Shown: in pieces, positions 1,722-16,806 of the stretch
Layout of the letters: every line of letters begins with the position of its first letter
How positions within the stretch are numbered: position 1 is the stretch's first letter
IMG/VR virus record: IMGVR_UViG_3300039106_000208
Coordinates: 1-29,752 of that record
DNA: 29,752 bases
Source of the DNA: a virus
Reading direction: 5' to 3' (one strand)
The notes under the pieces: generated by a model
What the model was told of the DNA's origin: nothing
The model's database searches: none
Seen by the model: the letters and a program-made list of their open reading frames with translations, nothing else
Position numbers and translations under genes: made by a program

Positions 1722-2196
1722 TTATATTCATCCAACTGCAATCATTGGTGATAATGTTATATTAGGTGATAACAATTACATAGGTGCTTATTGTATTATA
1801 GGTGATAAGGCAGAGCATAAGAAGTATTGGAATGAACCAAAGGGAAAAGTTATAATTGGTAATAACAATGTTATAACAGGACTAGTTACAATAGATGCAG
1901 GAACAGAACAAGTAACTTATATTGGTGATAATTGTTTTATTATGAAGCACGCACATATAGGACACGATTGTACTATAAATAATAATGTTACAATAAGTTG
2001 TGGTGCTAAGATAGGTGGACATTCTGTAATAGGTGAAAAATCAAACATAGGATTAAATGCAGTATTACATCAATTTTCTAGTATTAAAGTAGGTTGTATG
2101 ATTGGAGCAAGTGCATTTTTTAAAGGTGAATCAGAACCATATTCAAAATATGCAGGTGTACCTGCCAGAAAATTAGGAGAAAATAAACCAAGATGA
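1714..2196 (+). CDS. LpxA-like left-handed beta-helix acyltransferase
   Basis: A 160-residue protein built almost entirely of hexapeptide repeats (I-G-D-N-V-I-L-G-D-N and similar), which fold as a left-handed beta helix. The segment KHAHIGHDCTI (H79, H81, H84) matches the H-I-A-H-D-C motif around the catalytic histidine of LpxA, the UDP-GlcNAc acyltransferase. The C-terminal AGVPARKL is the usual helix cap. LpxA itself is about 260 residues and has a C-terminal helical domain that is absent here, so this is probably a sugar O- or N-acyltransferase. I start at ATG 1714 rather than GTG 1693 because the repeat fold begins at MANYIHPTA. The two glycosyltransferases after it suggest joint modification of a surface sugar. 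Confidence 0.8.
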   Translation: MANYIHPTAIIGDNVILGDNNYIGAYCIIGDKAEHKKYWNEPKGKVIIGNNNVITGLVTIDAGTEQVTYIGDNCFIMKHAHIGHDCTINNNVTISCGAKIGGHSVIGEKSNIGLNAVLHQFSSIKVGCMIGASAFFKGESEPYSKYAGVPARKLGENKPR

Positions 2197-2780
2197 ACGC
2201 AATAATATTTTTAAACTATCAAAATGATAGTGTTAGTACATTAGGACACAACTTGATTAATGCAGGTGCAGATGTTGAACAATTAATAATAGTCAAGGAA
2301 AAAGGAATAGCTAATGCAATTAACGTAGGATTAAATAAAATAGACTTTAGTCATATTGATTATGTTACCATTTTGGGAAATGATATATTAGAACCTAATA
2401 ATTGGTTATCAATTAGAAATGAATTTTTAAATGATGAATCAATAGGTATATGCTCAATTCCTTTAGATGGGTTTTCAGGTGATTCATTAGATTTAATTGG
2501 TAATTTTACAATTACTAAAGAAGCAATAAAAAGAGTTGGTGCATTTAATCAAGAGTTAGACCCTTACGGAGCAATTGATTTAGATTACTGCACAAGAGTA
2601 AGGTCAGCAGGATTACATACTAAATTTGTACCATCTACTAAAGCTACACACTTAGAACAGAACGGTAGTGATAAATATGGTTATAATAAAATGGAGTTAG
2701 TTAAAAAGACTTGGGATTTACACAATAAAAACGTATCACAATATACTGATGGAACTAAAGCATATTATATACCATTATGA
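2193..2780 (+). CDS. GT2-like (GT-A fold) glycosyltransferase
   Basis: A 195-residue protein with the order of a GT-A glycosyltransferase: an N-terminal strand MNAIIFLNYQNDS, an acceptor-side segment KGIANAINVGL, a G-N-D metal-site analogue (residues 62-64, in the DxD position), and DPYGAIDLDYCTRVRSAG (about 123-140), which parallels the E-D-x-D-x-C-x-R-x-x-x-x-G signature of GT2 enzymes. It is shorter than most GT2 enzymes, with no membrane tail. It would move a sugar from a nucleotide donor to an unknown acceptor in the cytoplasm. Its ATG overlaps the acyltransferase stop, and its own stop overlaps the next glycosyltransferase. Confidence 0.7.
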   Translation: MNAIIFLNYQNDSVSTLGHNLINAGADVEQLIIVKEKGIANAINVGLNKIDFSHIDYVTILGNDILEPNNWLSIRNEFLNDESIGICSIPLDGFSGDSLDLIGNFTITKEAIKRVGAFNQELDPYGAIDLDYCTRVRSAGLHTKFVPSTKATHLEQNGSDKYGYNKMELVKKTWDLHNKNVSQYTDGTKAYYIPL

Positions 2781-3772
2781 GAATATTAGCAGTAACAAGC
2801 AAATTTAGTGGAGTTGGTTATCATAGAATAATGATGCCATTAGTTAATATGCGTAAAGACTATTGCATGATTACAGATACTATTAATGAATTAGTATTTG
2901 ATAATAATTATGATATAGTAATTTTTAATAGGTTTTTAAATTCAACAGATGCAAAGCTATTAGTTAAAATGAAGTTGAAATATAACTTTAAATTAATAGT
3001 TGATAATGATGACTATTGGCATTTACCCCCATCACATATTTTGTATCAAAGATATCAGGATACCAATATATCTGAAATCATAACTGAATATTTAAAAGTA
3101 GCAGACCTTTGTACCTGTACTCATGAAAGGTTAGCTGATGAAATTTATAAGTATAATACTAATGTAGAAATATTACCTAATGCTTTACCATATGGTGAGG
3201 AGCAATTCCAAGATAATAAATTGGAATCTGATATGGTAAGACTATTTTGGTCAGGTTCAGGTACTCATGTTCCTGATTTAGATATATTAAGAAATCCAAT
3301 GAAGAAGATTAATTTCCCTGTAAGAACTGTAATTGCAGGTTATAATCTAGCTGAAAAACATCTTTGGGATAGAATGATAGGAGTATTTACCAATGGATTA
3401 AAACTTAATCCAACCATATATGACTATGCAGAGGTAACAAAATATATGGGTGCTTATGCTGATTCAGATATTAGTGTTATTCCTTTAGTTGAAAATAAAT
3501 TTGGTGCAATGAAATCTAATTTAAAAGTATTAGAAACTGCATCAAAGAGAAATCCTGCTATTGTTAGCAATGTGCATCCATATAAAGATATGCCTGTATG
3601 CTATGTAAATAATCAAAGGGATTGGTATTATTGGATTAAACTATTAGTCAATGATGAAGCAGCTAGGATTGAATATGGACAAAAGCTATTTGAATACTGC
3701 AATGCTAATTTCAACCTGCACACAATAAATAACAAAAGATTTGCTATTTATAATAAATTGATAGGTAATTAA
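2777..3772 (+). CDS. GT-B fold glycosyltransferase (GT4-like)
   Basis: A 331-residue protein that begins MRILAVTSKFSGVGYHRI, the N-terminal Rossmann strand and loop of GT-B enzymes. VDNDDYWHL and LPNALPYGEEQF mark the end of the first half. The C-terminal half holds DISVIPLVENKFGAMKSNLK followed by LETASKRNPAIVSNV, equivalent to the nucleotide-sugar site (E-x-x-x-x-x-x-P). A retaining transferase on a surface glycan is likely. With the two genes before it, it forms a three-gene sugar cassette. The target could be host lipopolysaccharide (superinfection exclusion) or virion proteins; the sequence does not say which. Confidence 0.72.
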   Translation: MRILAVTSKFSGVGYHRIMMPLVNMRKDYCMITDTINELVFDNNYDIVIFNRFLNSTDAKLLVKMKLKYNFKLIVDNDDYWHLPPSHILYQRYQDTNISEIITEYLKVADLCTCTHERLADEIYKYNTNVEILPNALPYGEEQFQDNKLESDMVRLFWSGSGTHVPDLDILRNPMKKINFPVRTVIAGYNLAEKHLWDRMIGVFTNGLKLNPTIYDYAEVTKYMGAYADSDISVIPLVENKFGAMKSNLKVLETASKRNPAIVSNVHPYKDMPVCYVNNQRDWYYWIKLLVNDEAARIEYGQKLFEYCNANFNLHTINNKRFAIYNKLIGN

Positions 3773-3954
3773 TGGAATGGTTTATTCAATTTGGTAACTT
3801 TAGAATATCATTAGGTATATTAACCAATACAATACACTTGGGTATATCATTAGGCTATAGCGTAGATGAGGATAATCAGTTACATAAAAGTTTGAATTTT
3901 GGATTTATCTTTGTATCATTGAACTTTATAATGTTTAATGAAGAAACATACTAA
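3772..3954 (+). CDS. Hypothetical protein, 60 aa
   Basis: A small, hydrophobic, beta-rich protein with alternating Phe/Leu/Ile and Gly (FGNFRISLGI, LGISLGYSVDE, LNFGFIFVSLNF). It starts on the last base of the preceding stop. I do not recognise it. Its 3' end overlaps the ancestral start of the HNH gene (ATG at 3938), which shows that the junction was a normal operon overlap before the homing endonuclease inserted. Confidence 0.5.
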   Translation: MEWFIQFGNFRISLGILTNTIHLGISLGYSVDEDNQLHKSLNFGFIFVSLNFIMFNEETY

Positions 3955-3964
3955 AATCTATTAT
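3938..3964 (+). repeat. 5' copy of duplicated flank (ancestral start of the HNH gene)
   Basis: Starting with ATGAAGAAACATAC, these 27 bases encode MKKHTKIYY. They recur with five mismatches at 4440-4466, where the frame reads LKKHTKIYF and continues into the HNH protein. Three of the five differences are silent. The 5' copy is the likely original start of the downstream HNH gene. Confidence 0.75.
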
Positions 3965-4468
3965 ATGGAAATATGGAAAGATATACCTGAATTACAAGGT
4001 AAATATCAATGCAGTAATTATGGAAGCATAAGAAGAAAAAATAAAGACCATAGATGTCAAGAGTATAAATTGCTCAATAATCAATTAACTAAAGATGGTT
4101 ATTTATCTTCTAATCCAACTAGAAATTATAGAAAAAGATTACATAGAATTGTAGCTGAATTGTTTATAGATAATCCAAATAATAAACCATATGTAAATCA
4201 TAAAGATTTAAATAAATTAAACAATCATTTTAGTAATTTAGAATGGGTAACTGCTTCTGAAAATTCTCAACATGCGAATAATAATGGAAAATTAGGTAGG
4301 ATGCATTGTAGTGTAATTGATATTAATAATAAACAAATATATAAAAGTATTAAACAGGCTTGTGAATTTTATTCATTTCCTTATAAATATGCTGCAAAAA
4401 TATTAAAAACAAAAGGTGTTTATAAAAATCTTAAATCAATTGAAAAAACATACAAAAATATATTTTGA
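3965..4468 (+). CDS. Free-standing HNH homing endonuclease (NUMOD4, HNH, NUMOD1-like)
   Basis: A 167-residue protein. It opens with MEIWKDIPELQGKYQCSNYG, a NUMOD4 domain. An HNH_3 nuclease core follows (LHRIVAELFI, then VNHKDLNKLNNHFSNLEWVT, with the H-N-H residues). A NUMOD1-like DNA-binding helix region ends it (VIDINNKQIYKSIKQACEF). It would make a site-specific nick or break and spread its own gene. The frame is also open to ATG 3938, which would add MKKHTKIYY, but family proteins begin at the MEIWK position. It lies between two copies of the first codons of the downstream HNH gene, so it appears to be a recent insertion. Its last residues probably come from target DNA. Confidence 0.88.
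   Translation: MEIWKDIPELQGKYQCSNYGSIRRKNKDHRCQEYKLLNNQLTKDGYLSSNPTRNYRKRLHRIVAELFIDNPNNKPYVNHKDLNKLNNHFSNLEWVTASENSQHANNNGKLGRMHCSVIDINNKQIYKSIKQACEFYSFPYKYAAKILKTKGVYKNLKSIEKTYKNIF
4440..4466 (+). repeat. 3' copy of duplicated flank
   Basis: Begins TTGAAAAAACATACAAAAAT and matches the 27 bases at 3938-3964 at 22 of 27 positions. It spans the final codons and stop of the homing endonuclease in one frame and the N-terminus of the HNH protein in the other. The original ATG is here a TTG. Confidence 0.75.
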
Positions 4469-5188: not shown

Positions 5189-5566
5189 ATGCCATTTGAA
5201 AAAGGAATAACACCACAAGGAGCAAAGCCATTTGAAGCAGGGGAATCAGGGAATCCCAATGGCAGACCTAGAAAATATGTCAGCCTATTAAAAGAACAAG
5301 GCTATAAGCTATCAGAAATTAATGATAGTATACAGGCTTTAATGTCTATGGATGAAGAAGAACTAAAATCAGTTAGCACAAATGACAAAGCAACTGTACT
5401 TGAAAAAACGATTGCTAAAGCTATTTTAAAATCCATGAGTAATGGTAGTCTATATTCATTAGATACTTTATTGACTAGGGTATATGGTAAGCCTAAAGAA
5501 CAAATGGATATTAAATCAGATAACAAAATAGAAGTTATCTTTGTAGATGGTAAAACCATTTTATAA
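5189..5566 (+). CDS. DUF5681-like protein, probable terminase small subunit
   Basis: A 125-residue protein. Its N-terminal segment includes KPFEAGESGNPNGRPRKYVS (about residues 13-32), the F-x-x-G-x-S-G-N-P-x-G-R-P signature of DUF5681, common in small-terminase-like phage proteins. The rest is helical. Its stop overlaps the ATG of the large terminase (TAATG at 5564-5568), the usual small/large terminase arrangement. It would recognise phage DNA and hand it to TerL. The assignment rests on the signature plus position. Confidence 0.65.
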   Translation: MPFEKGITPQGAKPFEAGESGNPNGRPRKYVSLLKEQGYKLSEINDSIQALMSMDEEELKSVSTNDKATVLEKTIAKAILKSMSNGSLYSLDTLLTRVYGKPKEQMDIKSDNKIEVIFVDGKTIL

Positions 5567-6717
5567 TGCAGATATTTCTACCTAACCCACACGCAAACCA
5601 ACAGAAGATACTTGAATGCGACAAGCGTTTCAGGGTGGTGATGTGTGGTCGTAGATTTGGTAAATCAGAACTATCACAGATACTTTCGGTCACATATGCG
5701 GTTAAAGGCTATTCTGTGGCTTATATAACCCCTACTTATGGATTGGCTAAGGTTTTCTTTAGTAAGCTAACTGAATCCCTAGAATTGCCTAAAAACAAGT
5801 CTGATTTAAAAATAGATTTCCCTAATGGTGGGCAGGTCGAATTCTTTACAGGTGAAAGGCTAGATAACCTAAGGGGTAGAAAGTTCCATTTGGTTATTAT
5901 AGATGAGGCTTCATTTATTCCTGACCTAGAATCTGGATGGCAAAATAGTATTAGACCTACGCTAACCGATTACAAAGGCAAGGCAATATTCCTTTCAACA
6001 CCTAGAGGCAAAAACTATTTCTATAGTTTATTTATGAAGGCAGGTGAAAATGATTGGGCATCATTCAAATTTACTAGCTATGACAATCCTTTTATTGACC
6101 CAATGGAAATAGATGAAGCTAGGATGCAACTGCCTAACGTGGTATTTGAGCAGGAATACATGGCTAACCCATCAGAGAATAGTGCTAACCCATTTGGTAA
6201 TAAGTTTATACAGGATTGTGTTAAGCCTATTAGTAACCAACCTATAGTTGCATTTGGTATTGACCTTGCTAAGTCAGTTGACCATACCGTAATCATAGGT
6301 CTTGATAATGGTGGCAATGTGGCTTATTTTGACAGGTATCAAATGGATTGGCATAATACTAAGGAGAATATAAAGAGACTGCCTAGATGCCCTATATTGG
6401 TAGATAGTACAGGTGTAGGTGACCCTATCCTAGAAGACCTGCAAAGGGAAGGGATAGCTATTGAAGGGTTAAAGTTCACAAGTTCTAGTAAGCAGCAGAT
6501 AATGGAAGGCTTGGCTACTGCCATTCAACAGGGCAGGATAGGATTCCCAGAAGGAGCAATCACAAATGAGTTGCAAGTGTTTGAATATCAATTCACCGCC
6601 AATGGGGTTAAGTATTCTGCACCTAGTGGATTCCATGATGACTGTGTTATGGCATTGGCTTTGGCTTGGAATAACTTCAGCATAAAAAGGGGTAATGGAA
6701 GATATTCTTTTGCCTAA
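5566..6717 (+). CDS. terL: Terminase large subunit (TerL)
   Basis: A 383-residue packaging motor. The ATPase half has a Walker A variant CGRRFGKSE (G28-S34), a Walker B LVIIDEAS (D113, E114) and the coupling motif STPRGKN (about 144-150). The RNase H-like nuclease half has FGIDLAKSVDHT (D233), LVDSTGVGDP (D280) and GFHDDCVMALALAW (D358/D359). All key residues are present, so the protein should be active, although it is slightly shorter than the usual 400-500 residues. It powers DNA entry through the portal and cuts the concatemer. Portal is 14 kb downstream rather than adjacent. The transcript probably ends soon after, where the next promoter module begins at 6720. Confidence 0.97.
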   Translation: MQIFLPNPHANQQKILECDKRFRVVMCGRRFGKSELSQILSVTYAVKGYSVAYITPTYGLAKVFFSKLTESLELPKNKSDLKIDFPNGGQVEFFTGERLDNLRGRKFHLVIIDEASFIPDLESGWQNSIRPTLTDYKGKAIFLSTPRGKNYFYSLFMKAGENDWASFKFTSYDNPFIDPMEIDEARMQLPNVVFEQEYMANPSENSANPFGNKFIQDCVKPISNQPIVAFGIDLAKSVDHTVIIGLDNGGNVAYFDRYQMDWHNTKENIKRLPRCPILVDSTGVGDPILEDLQREGIAIEGLKFTSSSKQQIMEGLATAIQQGRIGFPEGAITNELQVFEYQFTANGVKYSAPSGFHDDCVMALALAWNNFSIKRGNGRYSFA

Positions 6718-6719
6718 TT

Positions 6720-6750
6720 ACCGTTCGTCATTAATATTTACCATTCATCA
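6720..6750 (+). promoter_or_regulatory. Two-site operator-like direct repeat, copy A
   Basis: Two related decamers, CCGTTCGTCA (6721-6730) and CCATTCATCA (6741-6750), are spaced exactly 20 bases apart, about two helical turns. The same pair with the same spacing occurs on the opposite strand at 17793-17822. The sites lie upstream of the promoter at 6778, roughly -65 to -95 from the expected transcription start. That favours activator binding over simple repression. Confidence 0.65.
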
Positions 6751-6777
6751 CAAAGTTTAAAAATAGTTAGCAATATG

Positions 6778-6810
6778 TTTGGATTGTGTATATAAGTTGT
6801 ACTATATTTG
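6778..6810 (+). promoter_or_regulatory. Bacteroidota-type promoter, copy A
   Basis: TTTG at 6778-6781 and TATATTTG at 6803-6810 are separated by 21 bases, matching the Bacteroidota consensus TTTG-N19/21-TAnnTTTG. The -33 region lies inside ATGTTTGGATTGTGT (6775-6789), which is identical to 17755-17769 on the minus strand. Transcription should start near 6817 and lead into the gene at 6842. Confidence 0.75.
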
Positions 6811-6841
6811 ATTTATCAAACAAACCAAAAAAACCAACGTT

Positions 6842-7075
6842 ATGAAACAAATTAAAAAAATTGGACAAGGCTATTATCAATCAGGTTATGGCAGAGGATT
6901 TAAAAAGAATCCTATTGTAAGACTTATTAATGGTAAAGCATATGTCAAAGATTCAACACAAACTCCATTTCAAACTGACTTAGAAGGATATGTAATGGTT
7001 AATGCTTTTAAAACAGGAGACCAAATATTCTTTGCAGCAGTTAGCTTAATTAAAGAACATAATTTACATAACTAA
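6842..7075 (+). CDS. Hypothetical protein, 77 aa
   Basis: A small basic protein that begins MKQIKKIGQGYYQSGYGRGF. The remainder alternates strands and turns, ending in VSLIKEHNLHN. No family is recognised. It is the first gene behind the strong promoter at 6778-6810, with a leader of about 25 bases (AACCAAAAAAACCAACGTT) resembling the repeated start leader. Its regulation is therefore the best supported in the region: the upstream two-site repeat should control it. Confidence 0.6.
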   Translation: MKQIKKIGQGYYQSGYGRGFKKNPIVRLINGKAYVKDSTQTPFQTDLEGYVMVNAFKTGDQIFFAAVSLIKEHNLHN

Positions 7076-7112
7076 CCCACGCAGGGGTGCGACTGTCCAA
7101 CGCACAATTTTT

Positions 7113-7202
7113 ATGAAAGACAAACAAAAACAATACAACTTTGAGGCAGCAGTAATTATGGTTTTAGCTATCTTAGCTACTGCATACATTCAAAATAATT
7201 AA
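7113..7202 (+). CDS. Tiny single-span membrane protein, 29 aa
   Basis: ATG at 7113 opens a 29-residue frame, MKDKQKQYNFEAAVIMVLAI and nine more residues. A short charged N-terminus precedes one hydrophobic helix. It is preceded by a small hairpin-like sequence (GTGCG and CGCAC around 7088-7103, followed by ATTTTT). The function is unknown. Support is the clean hydrophobic pattern and its place in a run of small genes. Confidence 0.4.
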   Translation: MKDKQKQYNFEAAVIMVLAILATAYIQNN

Positions 7203-7207
7203 ATCAT

Positions 7208-7267
7208 TACCCCTGCCACAATTATTAATTAACAAAATAAAGGGTGTTGGTTATATCGGTGGGGGTA
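7208..7267 (+). other. Possible long-loop hairpin in intergenic region
   Basis: TACCCCTGCC (7208-7217) can pair with GGTGGGGGTA (7258-7267) around a 40-base loop, just before the gene at 7279. The same arm pair, with short loops, forms the terminators at 9093 and 20053. Here the loop is long and the following T run is short (ATTTT), so it may be a terminator remnant or a structured leader. Confidence 0.3.
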
Positions 7268-7278
7268 TTTTAAAAACT

Positions 7279-7527
7279 ATGATTATGAATAAAAACATTG
7301 AAGATTTATTATATCCTAATAATAATAAACTTATACTTAATGATGATGAAATAACTACTACAATAGTAGATTGTGAATTAGATGAATATAGATGTACATT
7401 TAATGGAGCAGAAGATATACAAATAAATACAGAGGGTTATACTCATATAACATTAGATATTGATACACTTGAATCATTAATACTATTAATTAAGAAGGCA
7501 GAAAAAATGTATAATAAAATCAAATAA
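7279..7527 (+). CDS. Hypothetical acidic protein, 82 aa
   Basis: An acidic protein with an N-terminal DLLYPNNNKLILNDDE segment, a central beta-like stretch (TTIVDCELDEYRCTFNG) and a C-terminal helix (LESLILLIKKAEKMYNKIK). No domain is recognised. Start choice is between ATG 7279 and ATG 7285. It belongs to the run of small genes behind the 6778 promoter. Confidence 0.5.
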   Translation: MIMNKNIEDLLYPNNNKLILNDDEITTTIVDCELDEYRCTFNGAEDIQINTEGYTHITLDIDTLESLILLIKKAEKMYNKIK

Positions 7528-7530
7528 CCA

Positions 7531-7695
7531 ATGACAAACTACGAATTAAAACAAGGCATTTTAGACAAGTTAGAAATAGAAGGTTTAATTTCAAGGATTG
7601 AAAAACTTGAACATCAATTAGCAGAAAAGGAACAGGAACTCAAAAAGCTGACAAAGGAATTTATTTCATTACAACACGAATTCTATAAAGATTAA
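7531..7695 (+). CDS. Short coiled-coil protein, 54 aa
   Basis: ATG 7531 to TAA 7693 encodes a helical protein with clear heptad spacing: LISRIEKLEHQLAEKEQELK then KLTKEFISLQHEF. It is likely a dimeric coiled coil, possibly an adaptor or a small antagonist of a host protein, but nothing identifies a partner. It starts three bases after the previous stop (TAACCAATG), a shortened form of the repeated leader. Confidence 0.5.
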   Translation: MTNYELKQGILDKLEIEGLISRIEKLEHQLAEKEQELKKLTKEFISLQHEFYKD

Positions 7696-7698
7696 CCT

Positions 7699-7833
7699 AT
7701 GAAAACAGCAAACAAAATAAAATTAGCTAAAAATCTTTTTGAAGGAGGATTAAAATGGGATGCTTGGGTTAAGTTAAATTTATATTATAAAAACTTAAAA
7801 GTAATTAAAAGATTAATTCACCAAAACAAATAA
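7699..7833 (+). CDS. Small basic protein, 44 aa
   Basis: ATG 7699 to TAA 7831. The product begins MKTANKIKLAKNLFEGGLKW and is Lys-rich with few acidic residues. The spacing from the previous stop is TAACCTATG, a shortened form of the leader repeat. The last four codons (HQNK) are written by the next leader copy at 7821. No family is recognised. Confidence 0.45.
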   Translation: MKTANKIKLAKNLFEGGLKWDAWVKLNLYYKNLKVIKRLIHQNK

Positions 7834-7839
7834 CCTATG
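7821..7839 (+). promoter_or_regulatory. Start-associated leader repeat, copy 3
   Basis: CCAAAACAAATAACCTATG, an exact 19-base copy. The internal TAA is the stop of the preceding 44-residue gene and the ATG starts the next, the same arrangement as at 410-428. Confidence 0.65.
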
Positions 7840-7998
7840 GGAAGCCAATTACAATACAAGACACAATGCCTTAAGAGAAATTTAATTAGTGGTACATACC
7901 AAAGAGGCAAAAATGGTAAATGGTATAGACAATATTGCAGAAACTATGCTAATGGATTTATATCTGAATCAGATAAACAATTAATAGAAAACCTATAA
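7837..7998 (+). CDS. Small basic protein, 53 aa
   Basis: ATG 7837 to TAA 7996. It is rich in Arg, Lys, Tyr and Gln, with GTYQRGKNGKWYRQYCRNYA in the middle, which looks like a small nucleic-acid-binding or beta-strand protein. The start is fixed by an exact copy of the 19-base leader. The function is unknown. Confidence 0.5.
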   Translation: MGSQLQYKTQCLKRNLISGTYQRGKNGKWYRQYCRNYANGFISESDKQLIENL

Positions 7999-8017
7999 CC
8001 AAAACAAATAACCTATG
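7999..8017 (+). promoter_or_regulatory. Start-associated leader repeat, copy 4
   Basis: CCAAAACAAATAACCTATG, an exact copy. It starts on the base after the preceding stop codon and ends in the next start codon, so the whole intergenic region is the repeat. Confidence 0.65.
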
Positions 8018-8206
8018 ATACAAGATTTAAATGAAATTAATTACCAAATTAATGAAGGAAGATTATTAATGGCAGCATTAGCAATCATTACTACTGAATG
8101 TAGAACAGATAAAACACCTAATGAAGTAATAAGCGAATTAAACCAACGAGCAGACGATATGTTTCAGGTTACTGAACTAAAAATAGAAACCTATCCAGAT
8201 AAATAA
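8015..8206 (+). CDS. Hypothetical helical protein, 63 aa
   Basis: An acidic, mainly helical protein: MIQDLNEINYQINEGRLLMA, a short hydrophobic AALAIITTEC segment, then TPNEVISELNQRADDMFQ. It has no motif of known function. The start codon is the end of an exact leader copy, and the gene is followed immediately by another. Confidence 0.5.
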   Translation: MIQDLNEINYQINEGRLLMAALAIITTECRTDKTPNEVISELNQRADDMFQVTELKIETYPDK

Positions 8207-8225
8207 CCAAAACAAATAACCTATG
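8207..8225 (+). promoter_or_regulatory. Start-associated leader repeat, copy 5
   Basis: CCAAAACAAATAACCTATG, an exact copy occupying the entire space between the stop at 8204-8206 and the next start. Confidence 0.65.
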
Positions 8226-8327
8226 AGGTTTATAAAGTTCTTTATTATTAGCATACCTTTGGCTTGTTTAATATATGTAATTGTATTATCTTTATGCAAA
8301 ATCAAAAACGTATGTGGGAAAAAATAA
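8223..8327 (+). CDS. Tiny membrane protein, 34 aa
   Basis: ATG 8223 to TAA 8325 encodes MRFIKFFIISIPLACLIYVI and 14 further residues. One hydrophobic helix has positive charges at both ends. It overlaps the first 16 bases of the tail chaperone gene. The start is set by an exact leader repeat. It is probably inserted in the inner membrane; function unknown. Confidence 0.5.
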   Translation: MRFIKFFIISIPLACLIYVIVLSLCKIKNVCGKK

Positions 8328-8983
8328 ACGTCTGGCAATATCAGCAGATATACAATCTTTATAATTCAAAGGATAATTACACTACTGATTTAGAAGTAGA
8401 TAGTAAATTAGTTTCAATAGTTAATGATATAACAGAAGCACAGGTTGACAGTTTGCCATTAAGTGAATTTAACAAGCTAAAGGAAAGTATTAAATTTTTG
8501 ACTGAACCGATTGTAGGTAAGCCTGTTAAATATATTAAAATAAGTAAAAGTAAAAGGTATAAAATTAACTATGATGTTAGCAAGATGCCATTTGCTAGGT
8601 ATATAGAGAGCAAAGTATTTAGTGAAGATTTGTATGGCAATCTGCACAAGTTGGCAGCAACTATGGTTATACCACAAAAGAAAAGATATGGATTCTGGGT
8701 TACAGAAAAGTATGACGCTAGTAAGCATGAGCAATATTCAGATGATATGCTGACTGCTAGATTTGTAGATGTTTATCATTCGCTTGTTTTTTTTTATCAA
8801 GTATACAGAAATTGGATAGAAGTTTCACAGGATTATATGGTGAACAAAATGATGGAAGCAGGGATGACACAGGCACAGGGGAAAGAGGCGGTTCAAAGTT
8901 TATGCAGTATTTTGGATGGCAATATTCCACCAAACTTATTGCCGAGTACGAAAATTGCACAGTTACAGAAGCGTATGAACTAA
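8312..8983 (+). CDS. Tail assembly chaperone (G-like)
   Basis: A 223-residue protein. I start at ATG 8312 (MWEKINVWQYQQIYNLYNS), since the frame upstream of it is a hydrophobic read-through of the preceding tiny gene. The N-terminal part resembles phage tail assembly chaperones that bind the tape measure: an inner W-Q-Y-Q-Q-I-Y helix, a PLSEFNKLKESIKFL helix, a beta hairpin (KRYKINYDVSKMPFARYIES), then LHKLAATMVIP. At T9 (8787-8795) a -1 shift joins residue 161 to a 90-residue extension. This is the classic G/GT arrangement of long-tailed phages. Unshifted translation continues 62 more residues to 8983, overlapping the extension in another frame. Confidence 0.65.
   Translation: MWEKINVWQYQQIYNLYNSKDNYTTDLEVDSKLVSIVNDITEAQVDSLPLSEFNKLKESIKFLTEPIVGKPVKYIKISKSKRYKINYDVSKMPFARYIESKVFSEDLYGNLHKLAATMVIPQKKRYGFWVTEKYDASKHEQYSDDMLTARFVDVYHSLVFFYQVYRNWIEVSQDYMVNKMMEAGMTQAQGKEAVQSLCSILDGNIPPNLLPSTKIAQLQKRMN
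8788..8794 (+). other. Candidate -1 ribosomal frameshift site
   Basis: Within a run of nine Ts (8787-8795) the zero frame reads GTT TTT TTT TAT, giving the slippery heptamer T TTT TTT at 8788-8794. Both tRNAs can re-pair after slipping back one base. The -1 frame is open from here to TAG at 9064. A sequencing slip in the homopolymer is the main alternative. Confidence 0.55.
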
Positions 8984-9066
8984 GTACAATAGAGTGCTTA
9001 AATATATTAGCATACTTAAAAGCTAAGGCTGATTTTGACAAAGAACAAATAAGAAAGATTAGATAG
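8794..9066 (+). CDS. Frameshifted C-terminal domain of the tail chaperone (T-like)
   Basis: Read in the -1 frame after the T9 site, this adds 90 residues: a Gly/Asp-rich linker (EQNDGSRDDTGTGERGGSK) and a compact helical domain (MQYFGWQYSTKLIAEYENCT then ECLNILAYLKAKADFDKEQI). A linker plus short helical domain supplied by frameshifting is what the T part of the lambda-type GT protein looks like. The fusion would be 251 residues. Separate initiation at ATG 8902 (54 residues) is the alternative. In lambda-type phages, GT binds both tape measure and tube subunits during tail assembly. Confidence 0.6.
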   Translation, partial: LSSIQKLDRSFTGLYGEQNDGSRDDTGTGERGGSKFMQYFGWQYSTKLIAEYENCTVTEAYELSTIECLNILAYLKAKADFDKEQIRKIR

Positions 9067-9092
9067 TGCATATAGGTTTTTTGGTTTGCTGA

Positions 9093-9116
9093 CCCCTGCC
9101 CTTAAAAAAGGTGGGG
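9093..9116 (+). terminator. Rho-independent-type hairpin after the chaperone genes
   Basis: CCCCTGCCCTT and AAGGTGGGG can form a stem closed by an AAAA loop; GTTAGTTATTTTTAT follows. The T run is not immediate, so termination may be partial. It lies 26 bases after the stop at 9066. Confidence 0.55.
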
Positions 9117-9130
9117 GTTAGTTATTTTTA

Positions 9131-9138
9131 TATCTTTG
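9131..9138 (+). promoter_or_regulatory. Possible -7 element before tail completion gene
   Basis: TATCTTTG followed by C fits TAnnTTTGY and directly follows a terminator. No TTTG is present at the proper upstream distance, so the promoter would be weak or would need another factor. Its expected start point is about 8 bases before ATG 9153. Confidence 0.25.
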
Positions 9139-9152
9139 CCCTATTTATTAGT

Positions 9153-9821
9153 ATGAGCATTAGTAAAGCACAGGCAAAAGCAATTGGTGATGGATTCCTA
9201 AATTCATTAGGTGAGCAACCTATGAAAGAAGTGGAAATGCCTGTTATTGAAAGAATACTAAAAGACTTTGGTGGTGATTTTATAACTGCTGCCCAGAAGA
9301 ATCTTAATAAAAATAATTCAATTGCTTCAGGTGCTATTGATGATATAAGGATGAATTTTACAAAGTTTGCCACTAGTTATACTATTTCATTAGGTTACCC
9401 TAAAAGTGAACCTGCTTCTAAATATTGGGACTTTATAAATAAAGGGGTTAAAGGTACTAAGAATATAAAAGCAGATGGAAAGACACCTTACAAATTTAAG
9501 TCAGGTAAAAAGGCTATTCCAATAGCTGCTGCAGAAAAATGGCTAGGATATAATAAGTTAAAAGCAACTTCAATAAAACCTTATAAGAAAAAGGGTATTG
9601 AAACAAAAGCAATAGAAGGGAAAAAATCATTGGCTTATATGTTAGCTAGGTCAATACATAGAAAGGGTATTAGGTCAACACACTATTTTGACAATGCCCA
9701 AAAAGAAGTGTTTGGTAAAAACTTTTATGAAGTAATGGAAGCAGCATTAGGAAAAGATATTCAAATTAAAATTAGACAAATAGGTAAAGAATTAAAAAAT
9801 GGCAATAACAATACAAAGTAG
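9153..9821 (+). CDS. Tail completion / HK97 gp10-like protein
   Basis: A 222-residue basic protein. The centre YWDFINKGVKGTKNIKADGK, followed by TPYKFKSGKKAIP, matches the Y-x-x-F-V-N-x-G-x-x-x-x-K core seen in HK97-gp10-like tail completion proteins. MLARSIHRKGIRSTHYFDNA matches the R-x-I-x-x-x-G-x-x-x-x-x-F segment near their C-terminus. It would sit at the head-proximal end of the tail. ATG 9153 is chosen because the upstream GTG extension (from 9111) is read through the terminator hairpin. The gene overlaps the next by 23 bases. Confidence 0.6.
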   Translation: MSISKAQAKAIGDGFLNSLGEQPMKEVEMPVIERILKDFGGDFITAAQKNLNKNNSIASGAIDDIRMNFTKFATSYTISLGYPKSEPASKYWDFINKGVKGTKNIKADGKTPYKFKSGKKAIPIAAAEKWLGYNKLKATSIKPYKKKGIETKAIEGKKSLAYMLARSIHRKGIRSTHYFDNAQKEVFGKNFYEVMEAALGKDIQIKIRQIGKELKNGNNNTK

Positions 9822-11025
9822 TCCTGCACCTTATTCAAGTATGCATGATGACTTATGGTACGTTTCAAGTTCAACTAATGTAGGTCAAACTGCATTTAAA
9901 TTCGTTTATGATGTTTATGTAAACGGAGCACAAGTAAGCAGAACAAAGGTATATCCTTCACCATCAGGAGAAGGTAGCTATGGTGTATTCAATGCTTCAC
10001 CAATGGTGCGTAGTTATGTAACTAATTACTTTGAACCATCTGGCAGTTCAATATTAGTGGCATCAAATGATAAAATAAAGGTAGATAGTACAATCAAGAT
10101 AGGTGAAGAATATGTAAGTGGTGGGAACTTGATAACAAATCTTAATTTAGTTTCAGGTGCTTTGAGTGCTTATAATTATTATCCCCCATTATTTGCAGAT
10201 ATTTTATTTGTTAATAATAATACACCATTAGTATTATCTGATTATTATGATAATCTATTATTGGAAAACTTTACAGACGATTGGATTACGGAAAGGGATA
10301 CCCAAAATATTACTATTGAATATGGTGATAATTTCTATGCTACCTATTTTAAAATAACTTCAGGTACTTATTCAGCATGGGTTGATGTAGTTAATGAAGG
10401 TGGCACAGTATTGGATACTGCAAGTGGTAATATAACATTTAGCGGTGAAATGAATCTATTCAATTGTCAGGCAGGACATATAAATACCTTTGCAGGTAGA
10501 ACATTAATAACAGAGAATACATATGGCTATAATGTTTATTTAAAACGAGGGGTAGCGGTATCTAGGAAATTGCAGTTCATTCAAAAGTGCTATCCTAAAT
10601 ATAAGCAATATAATCTGCATTTCCTTAATAGGCTAGGCGGTTGGGATACCATGAAATTTGCATTGGTTAATAAAAGGTCAACAGAAGTACAAAGGGCATC
10701 ATATAGAAGAAACGATTGGCAGCTTTCTGGCAATACAATGACAAATATAGATTCATACAATAAGTATAATGAAACTACTTTGAATTATGCAATTCAGCAT
10801 AAGGATAAATTCCATTTAGTTTCTGATTGGGTTAGTGAACAGGATTATGAATGGTTAGCACAATTATTTGCAAGTACAATTACATACATGGAAGTACAAG
10901 GTGCATATTTCCCTGTAACAATTAGCAGCACAAACTATGAATATAAATTAGAAAGTTCTGATAAATTATTCAACTTTGAAATAGATATTGAAGTAGGTAA
11001 ATATTTAACAAGTCAATTTAGATAA
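9799..11025 (+). CDS. Tail structural protein (distal tail/baseplate type), 408 aa
   Basis: A beta-rich virion protein. The start MAITIQSSPAPYSSMHDDLW is followed by YVSSSTNVGQTAFKFVYDVY, a pattern I know from Bacteroidota phage tail clusters. The middle is Ser/Thr/Asn-rich beta structure. The C-terminal third contains LHFLNRLGGWDTMKFAL and WLAQLFASTITYMEVQG, probably a folded tail-tip domain. It sits between the tail completion gene and a larger tail protein and shares a base with the latter's start (TAATG). It is probably part of the tail tip; the exact subunit is not determined. Confidence 0.55.
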   Translation: MAITIQSSPAPYSSMHDDLWYVSSSTNVGQTAFKFVYDVYVNGAQVSRTKVYPSPSGEGSYGVFNASPMVRSYVTNYFEPSGSSILVASNDKIKVDSTIKIGEEYVSGGNLITNLNLVSGALSAYNYYPPLFADILFVNNNTPLVLSDYYDNLLLENFTDDWITERDTQNITIEYGDNFYATYFKITSGTYSAWVDVVNEGGTVLDTASGNITFSGEMNLFNCQAGHINTFAGRTLITENTYGYNVYLKRGVAVSRKLQFIQKCYPKYKQYNLHFLNRLGGWDTMKFALVNKRSTEVQRASYRRNDWQLSGNTMTNIDSYNKYNETTLNYAIQHKDKFHLVSDWVSEQDYEWLAQLFASTITYMEVQGAYFPVTISSTNYEYKLESSDKLFNFEIDIEVGKYLTSQFR

Positions 11026-13067
11026 TGATTAGTACAGAAATATATATTGAAGATTACAAATTAGACTTATTGCAAGATATAAGTACAGAGTTTACATATA
11101 CTATTGATGACATTAATGACTTCGGTTCAAAGAATACATCATTTAGTAAAACATTATCATTATCAGGTACTGCTAGAAATAACCAGATATTTGGATTTAT
11201 ATTTGACTTAGGCAATGCAAACTTTACTGATGATACATTGCCAAATGTTAATTATAATTTCAATGCTTCTAAGTCTGCACAATGTAAAATCTTTATTGAC
11301 AAAGTACAGATATTTAAAGGAACATTAAGGATATTGGAAATAGTAAGTGAAGGTAAAACAATAGAATACCAATGTTCAGTATTTGGTGAATTAGGTGGGT
11401 TTATGAATTCATTAGGTAATTCAAGATTAGAAGACTTGGATTTTAGTGCTTATGACCATACTTACAATGTTAGTAATATAACAGGAAGTTGGGATGCATC
11501 TGCAGGTTCTGGATATTACTACCCATTAATTGATTACGGTAATGTAAGTACAGACAAAGTTAATTTTCAATTTAGTGCATTTAAACCTGCTTTCTATGTT
11601 AAGCAATACATAGATAAAATTTTTGAAGGTACTGATTACACATATGAATCTGATTTCTTTAATAGCAGTTTCTTTAAAAGATTAATTATACCACATAATC
11701 AAAAGACTTTAACAAGTTCAAGCAATACACAATTATCTGCATTGCCTGTTAGTCAAACATATAGTGATTACGGTACAGATTTTTATTTAGAATTTGGTGC
11801 TACATTATTAGGTAACTTTACAACTGATGGAATAACGTTTACATATACAGGAGCAATAACAAAGACAATAAATATAAATTTCACATTAAGTGGTGAATAT
11901 ACTTTAGGATATGCAGGTTCATTTCATGTTAGAAAAAATGGTGGCATAATTGGTACTTATTATGTAGGTGCAGGATTTCAAGGTAATTTATTTGATGCAA
12001 CTATTTCTATAACAGGTGTGTCAATTTCAACAAGTGATGCAATTTCTGTTACTTTTGATATTGCACATATTGGTGATAGTGACTATGAATTAATTGCATC
12101 AATAGGTACTTTAGATTTTACTACTACAAGTGTTGAAATAGTTCCTGTTGGTTATAATGAAACTATTGTAGCTAATAGCACAATTCCTAAAGGTATATTT
12201 CAAAGAGACTTTTTGTTAAGTATTGCTAAGATGTTTAATTTATATATATATGATGATACTTATGATGATAAGAAAATTCACATAAAACCTTATATAGATT
12301 TTTATCCAACATCAAGTGCTGATGCATTAGATTGGAGCAATAAAATAGATAGGTCGAAGCCATTGAGCATAAAGCCAATGAGTGAATTAAATGCCAGATA
12401 TTATCACTATAAATTTAAAGAAGACAATGATTTCTATAATGAAAACTACAAAAAGAAATATAACGAAAGTTATGGTGACAGGATATATGATACTTCATAT
12501 GATTTTAGTAAAAATACAGAAAGTGTTGAAGTAATATTTGCACCTTCTGTTTTATTTCAAGCAACAGGAACTGACAAAAAATATCCTGCTATATATAAGT
12601 TATCTAATAATAATAGTAAAGAGGATTCAATGGATAGTGTTATTAGAATAATGCAAGTGAAAAAGATTACAGGTGTAACATCATGGACAATTAAAAATGG
12701 TGCTACTACATTATCTACATTGACATCATATGGATATGCAGGTCATTTGGATGACCCTAATAACCCTACTAATGATATTAACTTTGGTTCACCTAAGGAA
12801 ATACAAATAGTAGTTTCTAATTATCCTACTACTAATTTATTCAATGCATATCATTCTGAATACATTGCAGAAATAACAGATAAAAATAGTAAGCTATTAA
12901 CCTGTTCTGCTTTATTAAATACAATAGATATATTTAATTTAGACTTCAGTAAATACATCTGGATAGATGGTATATTATTTAGATTGAATAAGGTTGAAGG
13001 GTATAACCCAATGGAATACAATACAACGAAAATAAGTTTATTAAAAGTAATTGAAACAACATACTAA
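11025..13067 (+). CDS. Large tail protein (hub-like), 680 aa
   Basis: The N-terminus reads MISTEIYIEDYKLDLLQDIS, then DDINDFGSKNTSFSKTLSLS, which matches a Bacteroidota phage tail family with the N-x-x-F-S-K-T-I-x-L-x-G-T block (about 37-52). A beta-sandwich stretch at about 235-370 (TDGITFTYTGAITKTININF and following) may be an inserted carbohydrate-binding or Ig-like module. After about 385 comes a second conserved part (IFQRDFLLSIAKMFNLYIYD, then KKIHIKPYIDFYP) like tail-hub domains. It directly precedes the tape measure, where hub proteins interact during assembly. Assignment as hub is inferred. Confidence 0.55.
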   Translation: MISTEIYIEDYKLDLLQDISTEFTYTIDDINDFGSKNTSFSKTLSLSGTARNNQIFGFIFDLGNANFTDDTLPNVNYNFNASKSAQCKIFIDKVQIFKGTLRILEIVSEGKTIEYQCSVFGELGGFMNSLGNSRLEDLDFSAYDHTYNVSNITGSWDASAGSGYYYPLIDYGNVSTDKVNFQFSAFKPAFYVKQYIDKIFEGTDYTYESDFFNSSFFKRLIIPHNQKTLTSSSNTQLSALPVSQTYSDYGTDFYLEFGATLLGNFTTDGITFTYTGAITKTININFTLSGEYTLGYAGSFHVRKNGGIIGTYYVGAGFQGNLFDATISITGVSISTSDAISVTFDIAHIGDSDYELIASIGTLDFTTTSVEIVPVGYNETIVANSTIPKGIFQRDFLLSIAKMFNLYIYDDTYDDKKIHIKPYIDFYPTSSADALDWSNKIDRSKPLSIKPMSELNARYYHYKFKEDNDFYNENYKKKYNESYGDRIYDTSYDFSKNTESVEVIFAPSVLFQATGTDKKYPAIYKLSNNNSKEDSMDSVIRIMQVKKITGVTSWTIKNGATTLSTLTSYGYAGHLDDPNNPTNDINFGSPKEIQIVVSNYPTTNLFNAYHSEYIAEITDKNSKLLTCSALLNTIDIFNLDFSKYIWIDGILFRLNKVEGYNPMEYNTTKISLLKVIETTY

Positions 13068-15331
13068 TGGCAGAGAATTTAAATTTAAATGTAAAAGTAG
13101 ATACATCAGAAGCTAATGCTTCGGTAGGTTCACTTAAAAAGCAACTTAGAGAAGCACAACAGGAGGTAATGGCATTGTCTGACAAGTTTGGTGCTACTTC
13201 AAAAGAAGCTATTAATGCAGCAAAAAAAGCAGCAGAACTTAAAGATAGAATAGGTGATGCTAAAGCATTAACAGATGCATATAATCCTGACCAGAAATTT
13301 AAAGCATTGACTGCTTCATTATCAGGTGTTGCAGGTGGCTTTGGTGCAGTTCAAGGTGCAATTGCTTTATTTGGTGTTGAATCTGAAAATGTTCAAAAAA
13401 CATTATTAAAGGTTCAATCTGCAATGGCTATTTCTCAAGGATTAAATGCAATAGGTGATTCTATTGATTCTTTTAAAACATTAGGTAATCAAATAGCACA
13501 AACTACAGTATTTCAAAAAGCTAATAATGCTGCAACGGTTGTAGCTGCAACAGTTCAAAGAGCATTTACAGGTGCAGTTGCTCAAACAAGTCTTGGGTTT
13601 CAAGCATTAAAAGGTGCAATTGCTGCAACAGGTATTGGATTATTAGTAGTAGGATTAGGAAGTTTAATTTCTGCAATTACATCATGGGTATCAAGTACAG
13701 AAGAAGCAGAGGCTGCACAAAGAAATTTAAATAGTGCACTTAAAGAACAAAATGAATTAACAAATACACAGGTTAGATTAAGTGATTATAATTCTGATTT
13801 AGCAATAGCAAAAGCAAGAAGATTAGGAAAAAGCCAAGAAGAAATTAATAAACTTGAAAATTCTAAAAATGCTGAAAGGCTTAAATATTTAGAAATAGCA
13901 AAAGATAAAGCAGAAGAATTATATCAAACAACTGCAAGAAATCAACTTATATCTGATGAAGACGCTGCAAAAGCAGAGGAAAATAGAAATAAAGCTAGAG
14001 ACGCATATCATCTTGAATATCAAAGACAAACTTTACAAAGTGAACAAACATGGGCTAAAAGTGAAGAAGATAAAAGAAAGAAAACAAAAGAAGAGAATCA
14101 AAAATCTATTCAATTAAATAAGGAAAGAAAAAAAATAGAAGAACAATTACAAAAAGAAAAGGATGATGCAGAAATTGAAGCAACTAAAAAGTTAGTAGAT
14201 TTAAAAAATCAAATATATCTTAATGGAATTGAAGATGAAAATAAAGCTAGAAAAATAGCTATTGGGCAGCAACTTTTTAAAGAAGCTGCTGAAATAAATG
14301 CTAATGAAAAACTTAAAGCAGAAACTAAACAAGCATTAATTATTGAATTGCGTAAAAAAGCACAATTAGAAATTGATGAAATAGATAAAAAAGAGGCAAA
14401 AGATAAAAAAGAAAAAGAAGAAGAATTTCAAAAAGAATTAGAAAAACTAAAACTTGAAATTAGATTATCAGGTATTAAAGATGAGTATGAAAAATCTAAA
14501 GCACAGATAGAATCAAATTATCAATTACAATATAAAGATATTGATAAAAATGAAAAATATACTGCAGAACAAAAACTTGCATTAAAACTTGCACTTCAAC
14601 AAAAAGAAAATCAAGAATTAGATAAATTAAAAGTAGATAAAGATAATTTAAAAATACAAGATGATAAAAAGAAGGCAGCGGATGATATTGCAGAACTTGA
14701 TAGGGAAATTGCAAAGAATGTTGCTAAGTTTGATATTGAAAGAGAATTATTAGATAAGAAAGATTTATTATTAAAAGAATATTTTGATAAGGGATTAATA
14801 AAAGAAAAAGAATATACTGATGGACTTGAAGCAAATTCAAAAGCTAGAGTTGACATAGCACAAAAAGAGGCTGATGCTAAAGCTCAATTATTACAAATGA
14901 TTTCACAAGCATTAGCACAGGCATCAGATATTGTAGGTAAAGAAACAGGTGCAGGTAAAACATTAGCAGTTGCAAGTGCATTAATAAATACATATCAAGG
15001 TATTAGTAAAGGAGTTGCTTTAGGATTTCCTTTAGCTATTCCTGCAGTAGCTATGGCAGCAATGACAGGATTTAGTGCAGTTAAAAATATATTAGCAGTA
15101 AAAGTCCCTGCAGGTGGTGGTACAGGTGGCGGTTCTACACCTGCTATGCCAAATGTTACAACATCTGCACCTATGACCCCTGCAGCACCTACTGCACAAA
15201 CTACTAATATTAGTCAGCAGTCTATTAATCAATTAGGCAATCAAGCGGTTAAGGCATATGTTATTGAAAGTGATGTAACTAGCAATCAACAAAGAATAGA
15301 AGCCATTAGACAAAGAGCAAGATTTAGTTAA
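13067..15331 (+). CDS. Tail tape measure protein
   Basis: A 754-residue protein with the standard features. The helical N-terminal region contains VGSLKKQLREAQQEVMALSD. Hydrophobic, Ala/Gly-rich membrane-like stretches lie at about residues 85-210 (SLSGVAGGFGAVQGAIALFG and GAIAATGIGLLVVGLGSLIS). A very long Lys/Glu coiled coil spans about 215-600. A second hydrophobic stretch (about 610-670), a Gly/Ser/Pro linker and a small C-terminal block ending QRIEAIRQRARFS complete it. At about 0.15 nm per residue, tails of roughly 110 nm would be expected. It begins on the last base of the hub-like gene stop. Confidence 0.92.
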   Translation: MAENLNLNVKVDTSEANASVGSLKKQLREAQQEVMALSDKFGATSKEAINAAKKAAELKDRIGDAKALTDAYNPDQKFKALTASLSGVAGGFGAVQGAIALFGVESENVQKTLLKVQSAMAISQGLNAIGDSIDSFKTLGNQIAQTTVFQKANNAATVVAATVQRAFTGAVAQTSLGFQALKGAIAATGIGLLVVGLGSLISAITSWVSSTEEAEAAQRNLNSALKEQNELTNTQVRLSDYNSDLAIAKARRLGKSQEEINKLENSKNAERLKYLEIAKDKAEELYQTTARNQLISDEDAAKAEENRNKARDAYHLEYQRQTLQSEQTWAKSEEDKRKKTKEENQKSIQLNKERKKIEEQLQKEKDDAEIEATKKLVDLKNQIYLNGIEDENKARKIAIGQQLFKEAAEINANEKLKAETKQALIIELRKKAQLEIDEIDKKEAKDKKEKEEEFQKELEKLKLEIRLSGIKDEYEKSKAQIESNYQLQYKDIDKNEKYTAEQKLALKLALQQKENQELDKLKVDKDNLKIQDDKKKAADDIAELDREIAKNVAKFDIERELLDKKDLLLKEYFDKGLIKEKEYTDGLEANSKARVDIAQKEADAKAQLLQMISQALAQASDIVGKETGAGKTLAVASALINTYQGISKGVALGFPLAIPAVAMAAMTGFSAVKNILAVKVPAGGGTGGGSTPAMPNVTTSAPMTPAAPTAQTTNISQQSINQLGNQAVKAYVIESDVTSNQQRIEAIRQRARFS

Positions 15332-15357: not shown

Positions 15358-16806
15358 ATGGAATTACCTTTATATATGTTGGAAATATCTGATGATTTGA
15401 ATGATGATGCAGAGGTGCAATTCGTTTCATTAGTAGATAGACCTGCCATTCAAAAGAATTGGAATGCGTTTAAAAATGAACAAAAGTTTCAAATTGTTAG
15501 CGAAGACAAGCATATTATTAGCGGTTGTGCTATGTTGGCTGACACTCCTATTTTTAGAAGTGACGTTAATTTTGGTGACTACTATGTGGCTTTTTCTAAA
15601 GATACAATTGTTAAGATTGTACAGAAATACTTTAAAAAGGGTTACCAAAATAATGTTAACTTAATGCATGACCCTAATCAGATTGAAACAGGGGTAACAA
15701 TGTTTGAAAGTTTTATTAGTGATAAGACTAGAGGCATACATCCTATGAAAGGATTTGAGGATGCACCTGATGGCAGTTGGTTTTGTTCAATGTTGGTAGA
15801 GAATGATGCAGTATGGCAGCAAGTTAAAGATGGCAAAGTTAATGGATTTTCAATTGAAGGTATATTTAACTATGCACCTAGTATTTCAAAAGAGCAACAG
15901 ATAATGAATGAAATATATAAGATATTAGGTGATATTAAAATGGGTGGGCCTGGCAGTGGTCGTAGGCCTGAAGGTGGCGGTGATAATGAAACATCAGGTA
16001 AATCTAGCTCTGCAATTGCTAAAGAAATAGCAGATAAATATGCTAAAGATGCAGAAGCAAGTGTATATAAATTAATGTCATCACCTGATATGGATACACA
16101 TAAATTATATCAGGATAAGGATGGTAATTATAATGAAGAAAGAACTGCATTTCATAAAGGCATAGTACAAGATAAAATTAATGAAGGTTCTACAAATTTA
16201 GGCACTTCTTATTTTTTAGGTGGAGCACCTGCAACAGGTAAAAGTTCATTAGAAAGTTCAGGTCAGGTAACATATCCAGAAGGAATATTAAGGGTTGACC
16301 CTGATGGGATAAAAGAAACTTTGCCTGAATATAATAAAATGACTGAAAATAAAGTTTCAGAAGCGGCTTCTAAAGTTCATGAAGAATCATCAAAGATTAC
16401 AAAAGATGTAATAAATAATGCTGCTCAAATGAAAATGGATGCAGTAATTGATACAGTTGGTGATGGTTCATATGAAAAAGTTGCAGAAAAAGCAAAGCAG
16501 CAGAGGGATGCAGGGAAAAGAGTAGTAGCACATTATGTTACAACTGATGTTGAAACATCATTAAATAGAGCAGCATCAAGGGCAGAAAGAACAGGTAGAA
16601 ATGTTCCAACAGATTATATTAAAGATATGCATAAAGAAATATCAACTATATTCCCAAAATTAGCAGCTAATAATACCTTTAATGAATTGCATTTATATGA
16701 TAATAACGGTGCAACCCCTAAACTTATATATAGCAAAAAAGATGGCAAAGAAACCATCTTAGATACTAATGCTTATAATAGCTTTTTGAAAAAGGCTAAT
16801 GGTTAA
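15358..16806 (+). CDS. XkdF-like prohead protease fused to zeta-toxin-type kinase
   Basis: A 482-residue two-part protein. Residues 1-175 look like an XkdF/S78-type capsid maturation protease: VQFVSLVDRPAI near the start, a possible catalytic H104 in NLMHDP, and S165 in KVNGFSIEGIF. A GGPGSGRRPEGGG linker (196-208) follows. Residues about 215-482 match the zeta toxin kinase family: Walker A GGAPATGKSS (288-297), DPDGIKETLPEY (314-325), AVIDTVGDGS (362-371) and an RAASRAERTGRNVP region. Zeta toxins phosphorylate UDP-GlcNAc and related substrates. Protease position in the head cluster suggests the kinase could be packaged. An in-frame ATG at 15940 could make free kinase. The stop codon overlaps that of the convergent next gene. 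Confidence 0.8.
   Translation: MELPLYMLEISDDLNDDAEVQFVSLVDRPAIQKNWNAFKNEQKFQIVSEDKHIISGCAMLADTPIFRSDVNFGDYYVAFSKDTIVKIVQKYFKKGYQNNVNLMHDPNQIETGVTMFESFISDKTRGIHPMKGFEDAPDGSWFCSMLVENDAVWQQVKDGKVNGFSIEGIFNYAPSISKEQQIMNEIYKILGDIKMGGPGSGRRPEGGGDNETSGKSSSAIAKEIADKYAKDAEASVYKLMSSPDMDTHKLYQDKDGNYNEERTAFHKGIVQDKINEGSTNLGTSYFLGGAPATGKSSLESSGQVTYPEGILRVDPDGIKETLPEYNKMTENKVSEAASKVHEESSKITKDVINNAAQMKMDAVIDTVGDGSYEKVAEKAKQQRDAGKRVVAHYVTTDVETSLNRAASRAERTGRNVPTDYIKDMHKEISTIFPKLAANNTFNELHLYDNNGATPKLIYSKKDGKETILDTNAYNSFLKKANG

Follow-up and report, generated by a model that had tools for sequence, protein, structure and literature searches.

A gene in the window, the 29,752-nucleotide stretch of viral DNA analysed here, very probably encodes the two-ended core of a G/GT-type tail assembly chaperone in which the two alternative endings are coded by the same bases in different reading frames. 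What supports this directly is the presence of both open reading frames, the selection that acts on both of them, the conservation of a run of nine thymines (T9) at which the frames would be exchanged, and the predicted folds. The proposed scheme is that one gene gives rise to the chaperone in two forms with residues 1-161 in common. Normal reading would produce a G protein of 223 residues, ending in a conserved, mostly helical tail of 62 residues, and in a minority of expression events the frame would shift at T9 to give a G-T protein of about 250 residues, in which a flexible linker and a helical T domain would take the place of the zero-frame tail. The arrangement of the frames suggests that the G-T fusion protein is made. 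The usual roles of G and T in phage lambda concern the tape measure and the tail tube, and by analogy the two ends of the present chaperone may bind these two different partners.

The positions of the features are collected in Table 1. The initial annotation had read GTT TTT TTT TAT at 8786-8797, which is exact to the letter, and had described a -1 frame open for 90 codons, a zero frame open for 62 residues beyond the run (to 8983), and about 190 bases coding in two frames; these are all borne out, the dual-coded stretch being counted at 186 nt. The -1 frame is in fact open from 8761 onward. The start of G is likely to be the ATG at 8312 and not the upstream in-frame ATG at 8294, because the sequence MW..VWQYQQ is common to the relatives. 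Immediately ahead of the G start, at 8287-8294, stands TATCTTTA, and right past the T stop, at 9092-9138, there is a GC-rich hairpin followed by TATCTTTG; both TATCTTTG and TATCTTTA resemble the Bacteroidota -7 box, whose consensus is TAnnTTTG. The T9 run alone is not rare in the window, which contains seven A/T runs of at least eight (11.8 expected) and three of at least nine (4.6 expected); the remarkable part is its conservation.

Table 1. Features of the probable chaperone gene, numbered from the first letter of the window
Feature	Positions	Strand	Remarks
Zero-frame chaperone (G-like) ORF	8312..8983	+	223 aa; stop TAA 8981-8983
T9 run	8787..8795	+	in-frame heptamer T_TTT_TTT 8788-8794
-1 frame tail (T-like)	8794..9066	+	90 codons, counted from TTA 8794-8796, then TAG 9064-9066; expected C-terminal part of G-T fusion
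Dual-coded overlap	8795..8980	+	186 nt; 62-codon zero-frame tail on top of the -1 tail
+1 frame	8796..8819	+	7 codons, TAG 8817-8819; would end a one-base-deletion product
Gly/Asp-rich -1 linker	8827..8889	+	-1 residues 12-32; mostly low confidence; residues 18-32 pLDDT <50
Helical T domain	8899..9063	+	-1 residues 36-90; block pLDDT 91-95 from residue 41

Conservation of the run and selection on both frames

Relatives were sought with the whole zero frame (33 loci), with the -1 tail (the best 80 of 234 and the best 80 of 334) and with the N-terminal part alone (the best 80 of 329 loci retained), the latter two kinds of query being used because an open zero frame should not be selected for. 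The 253 loci examined, several of which come from the same contigs and which include the window and its copy L001, could be anchored in 251 cases, the two others (L033 and L034) ending before the run. When incomplete or identical rows are set aside, 128 distinct sequences are left, many of which came from the queries with just the -1 tail or the N-terminal part. They are related by descent, and counts over them are not independent events.

The run is found in all 128 distinct sequences, as T9 in 126 of them and as T10 in two (L092 and L093), where it results from a GTT-to-TTT codon change and not from an indel, so that the phase is kept. Both frames are open in every sequence. The -1 tail has exactly 90 codons throughout, and the zero-frame tail has 62 codons in 68 sequences, 63 in one, 65 in 26 and 68 in 33. 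The initial annotation had proposed that the same T run and both frames be looked for in related phages, and had named eight or ten Ts together with a single uninterrupted gene in the relatives as an outcome that would overturn its reading; it is the former that is found. The DNA of the 40 nt or so past the run (8796-8838) is nearly invariant among 19 aligned relatives, one of them at 55% protein identity, an observation which dual coding may explain and for which an RNA or nascent-peptide signal may be an alternative.

The constraint on each frame is visible in the substitutions per site, counted by the Fitch method on a FastTree tree and listed by zero-frame codon position (1/2/3). These amount to 3.6/2.2/14.8 in the single-coding head, 3.0/5.7/4.7 in the overlap and 1.45/12.6/2.45 in the end that is coded in the -1 frame only. 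Zero-frame third positions are down threefold in the overlap relative to single-coding sequence, and the third positions of the -1 frame, which are second positions of the zero frame, show a more than twofold drop between the stretch outside the overlap and the overlap itself. The third-position drop occurs in every segment of the overlap (3.85, 6.95 and 3.30, compared with a minimum of 9.3 to 12.4 among head windows of the same size). Under synonymous resampling with the -1 protein held fixed, the zero frame stays open in 279 of 25,600 trials, and with the zero-frame protein held fixed the -1 frame stays open in 109 of 25,600. Zero-frame identity in the overlap is 0.70, compared with 0.49 expected under -1 selection alone (higher in 392 of 400 pairs), and -1 identity from the run to 8899 is 0.669, compared with 0.541 under zero-frame selection alone (higher in 399 of 400 pairs). 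Because of the combined substitution, resampling and identity results, both frames are taken to be selected, including the -1 stretch that precedes the one possible internal ATG, at 8902; there is purifying selection on both frames over the 186-nt overlap.

The zero-frame product was modelled with AlphaFold2 from 29 aligned rows, with a mean pLDDT of 82.6 and a pTM of 0.75. In this model a helix at residues 151-171 spans the slip residues 159-161 and is followed by helices at 173-182 and 187-200 (block pLDDT 77-92), and residues 201-223 are predicted with weaker confidence. The Gly/Asp linker and succeeding helical domain which the initial annotation had seen in the -1 tail agree with the AlphaFold2 models. 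The bases of the disordered -1 linker code for helices in the zero frame, and those of the T helices code for the more weakly predicted end of the zero-frame product. From the two AlphaFold2 models and the substitution pattern, the overlap appears to be shared out between the frames, with a floppy linker in one placed opposite helices in the other, which would make the overlap workable.

These results also bear on three alternatives to a two-ended gene. The T domain could be a separate small protein translated from a start in the -1 frame, at TTG 8812 or ATG 8902, with no fusion at all; these codons are present in 112 and 115 of the 128 sequences respectively, but the TTG is CTG in 16 of the 128 (12 changes) and the ATG is ATT in 13, so that the -1 frame has no conserved start of its own, as is expected of a frame that overlaps a G gene. 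In addition, the -1 frame between the run and ATG 8902 is selected and is open in all 128 sequences, compared with 1,493 of 25,600 resampled ones, and a separate T protein leaves the conservation of the T run unexplained; this alternative is accordingly given very little weight. Slightly less probable again is the possibility that only the -1 tail matters and that the long zero-frame tail is accidental. Some G/GT genes do stop 5-8 codons past the slip, and the gene of Nonlabens phage P12024S has 25 codons there, but an accidental tail is at odds with the reduction at -1 synonymous sites from 12.6 changes per site outside the overlap to 5.7 within it, with a zero frame open in every sequence, with the confidently predicted helices over residues 151-200, and with a tail that can still be aligned in two remote homologues. 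It is least probable of all, to the point of being negligible, that a homopolymer sequencing or assembly error has split a single gene: A/T runs are error-prone, but the same run recurs in 128 distinct sequences on many contigs, in the deposited P12024S genome and in bacterial genomes, and both frames are under selection.

Remote homologues and probable chaperone identity

Eight remote homologues are counted (L253, L254, L268, L269, L270, L272, L273 and L287), the near-copies L255, L265, L266, L267, L271 and L274-L277 being left out of the count. Exactly T9, together with an overlapping -1 T tail, is found in seven of the eight and in three codon registers, and only the three registers are truly independent cases. 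The run reads CTT TTT TTT TAT in phage P12024S (L253), which has 25 zero-frame and 81 -1 codons in its tails. The corresponding tails are of 62 and 90 codons in L254, from a Chitinophagaceae MAG. L268, with an N-terminal identity of 34-40%, and L287, which was found by scanning viral contigs with L268, have zero-frame tails of 47 and 49 codons; the zero-frame tail of the window can be aligned with those of L268 and L254. The run is read as TTT TTT TTT in L269, with 62 codons past the heptamer, and as xxT TTT TTT TTG in L272 (55 zero-frame codons) and in L273 (63 zero-frame codons, in a locus of 56.5% GC). The exception is L270, which is without the run and has a -1 overlap of just 16 nt.

The routes by which these loci were reached differ. 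No match to G came from tblastn against 50,697 phage records, and P12024S was reached by way of the portal protein. The PHROG of the P12024S protein (32199) matches 7 of 29 family members, with a best E-value of 1.4e-4, and the P12024S G fold is a BFVD match. In the P12024S record the region, gp38/39, is annotated as separate hypothetical proteins with no frameshift, an example of how the T half is overlooked by automated annotation. A terminase query yielded the Chitinophagaceae loci. A genome scan with the N-terminal alignment gave zero matches, and profile searches found matching genomes at rates of 4/394, 1/395, 1/3, 3/395, 3/396 and 2/395, in samples that overlap and with several of the matches being members of the query alignments. 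Scans of viral contigs with L272 and L269 found no relative. Two loci of Pollutibacter soli (L256 and L257) carry terminases about 60% identical to that of the window, and this resemblance suggests hosts of the Chitinophagaceae type; no G/GT run is found in the stretches near these terminases.

Among the profiles of Pfam, PHROGs and NCBIfam there is none that identifies the window protein as a chaperone, and the BFVD matches to entries with tail assembly chaperone in their names are weak (E 0.63; E 0.94 and 2.3). A fold search of the PDB gave no match at E 0.001 or better, and the best VIA-align Z-score, 4.7, comes from 39 residues that form a helical pair of a common kind. The BFVD entry A0A6J7WJY4, a 243-residue protein of an uncultured phage, resembles the zero-frame model as well as the T-domain model; it could be a natural fusion of G and T in a single frame. 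A G/GT gene is expected between the genes for the tail tube and the tape measure; in the window the G/T gene is separated by three genes from the tape-measure gene (13067), 4 kb away. L270 is directly upstream of a tape-measure gene that is 47% identical to that of the window over 272 residues, and this position supports the chaperone identity which no family library gives. The in-frame X_XXY_YYZ slippery heptamer inside the overlap which characterizes such genes is also present. The chaperone function itself is inferred.

Several other features of the window may be recorded. Over 5566-15331 the chaperone gene comes after the terminase and three genes ahead of the tape measure, an order similar to that of P12024S. 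A single ORF at 15358-16806 codes for both an XkdF-like phage protease domain (Peptidase_S78_2, E 7.6e-14) and a Zeta_toxin-type kinase domain (E 5.5e-29), and the portal protein at 20744-22723 has a C-terminal stretch like MarR-type winged helices (MarR_2, E 6.7e-4, under the cut-off of Pfam). Toward the left of the phage, 1693-3772 groups a hexapeptide-repeat acyltransferase with a glycosyltransferase-like protein and one more, unnamed ORF, and a homing-type HNH endonuclease with a NUMOD4 motif lies upstream of the terminase genes at 3938-4468.

The level of the proposed frame change

The frame change could be produced during transcription or during translation, and the evidence inclines slightly toward the former, for which the chances are put at about even. 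Under this proposal RNA polymerase would insert one U in the T9 run, and would also make some transcripts that lack a U, from which a short G terminating 7 codons past the run would result. A conserved A/T run of about nine, as expected of genes with programmed transcriptional slippage, is present. Of the run itself, the wobble positions of the three codons show no change in the 128 sequences, whereas the conserved columns for Phe have 6, 11 and 20 changes and those for Val have 9, 13 and 14. Particularly relevant is site 8794, where a T-to-C change would alter neither protein and would preserve a slippery heptamer, T_TTT_TTC: it shows no change in the 128 sequences, compared with 12, 4 and 6 changes at three other doubly silent sites, which are the only controls of this kind. 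In E. coli tetramer tests U_UU.C is reported to shift more than U_UU.U (PMC4066793). Nine is described as the run length at which a large share of bacterial genomes begin to show selection against polymerase slippage (PMC1088944), and poly(T) is described as favoured by the E. coli polymerase (PMC6260861).

The same two products would result from -1 ribosomal slippage on U_UUU_UUU at 8788-8794, as in lambda and P2, and this explanation is given a chance only a little short of even. Every T9, in whichever register, contains the heptamer in frame, so that the ribosome could make the shift there; the motif is listed among those that exceed 0.10% frameshifting in E. coli when no stimulator is present (PMC4066793), and the GT cases in those portions of the review literature drawn on here are ribosomal. 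In the window the run also begins and ends within conserved codons, for Val/Phe/Tyr and for Leu, and the protein sequence may hold part of the run in place. Against ribosomal slippage stand the invariance of the doubly silent 8794 and the occurrence of exactly nine Ts in each of three registers, two more than a ribosome requires (0.09-0.17 for each independent case under a crude flank model). No Shine-Dalgarno-like stretch is visible by eye before the run, and the stimulatory structure which the initial annotation had suggested searching for downstream of 8795 did not appear, no stable RNA structure being predicted there (z +1.88) and none that is convincing around the run (z -0.58). Of the "slippery run" of that annotation, the in-frame heptamer therefore stands, but the ribosomal slip that it implied does not stand as the only reading, since polymerase slippage fits at least as well.

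If polymerase slippage is the source of the shift, a broader picture may tentatively be drawn, although the odds are somewhat against it: Bacteroidota siphophages would make G/GT by polymerase slippage on a selected T9, in three forms (long G, G-T and short G), and the overlap, with its -1 linker opposite helices, would be an old device.

Comparison with known systems

Shigella mxiE, Thermus dnaX and IS elements resemble the present case in having A/T runs of about nine at which polymerase indels open a second frame. In mxiE the insertion of a U brings two overlapping ORFs into one frame (PMC1088944). These are not phage tail genes, and a 186-nt stretch selected in two frames is not described in the portions of the mxiE, dnaX and IS element literature used here. 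For phage tail chaperones, a literature search over titles and abstract openings returned no work on T9 or on transcriptional slippage, and none on a long dual-coded G/GT overlap. If the polymerase makes the switch, then programmed ribosomal frameshifting in phage tail genes, a classic example, gains a transcriptional counterpart.

Among phages, the gp38/39 region of P12024S is alike in its gene order (terminase, G, T, neck gene), its exact T9 and its 81-codon -1 T tail, and differs in that its zero tail has just 25 codons as opposed to 62. Lambda gpG/gpGT, P2 (E/E+E'), N15 14/15 and TP901-1 share with the window a single start, a -1 tail, a slip site in the overlap and a tail-gene neighbourhood, and give no sequence match to the window gene. 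The initial annotation had supposed that the unshifted product usually ends soon after the slip, and so it does in these phages: the zero-frame codons left number 5 past the slippery heptamer in lambda, 6 in P2 (slip T_TTT_TTG), 8 past the heptamer in TP901-1 and about 5 after the annotated slip in N15, compared with 62 in the window. In D29 and Bxb1 the -1 frames are open over the 220 and 148 nt that precede the stop of G, with no X_XXY_YYZ heptamer found there. Among the phages considered, which also included HK97, the comparison of zero-frame tails covers lambda, P2, TP901-1 and N15, and long overlaps may occur in others.

The lambda-like fusion gene which that annotation proposed is supported by the architecture and by the conservation of two frames, the fusion itself being predicted. 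What sets the window apart from the lambda gpG/gpGT group is that its zero-frame tail is long, selected and predicted to fold; the level at which slippage occurs may be a further difference. The window offers a clean natural case of two conserved C-terminal chaperone endings in the same bases, in which it may be examined how overlapping codes are apportioned between a disordered linker and helices. Measured against the counts for lambda, P2, TP901-1 and N15, the dual-coded overlap of this G/GT-type gene is unusually long.
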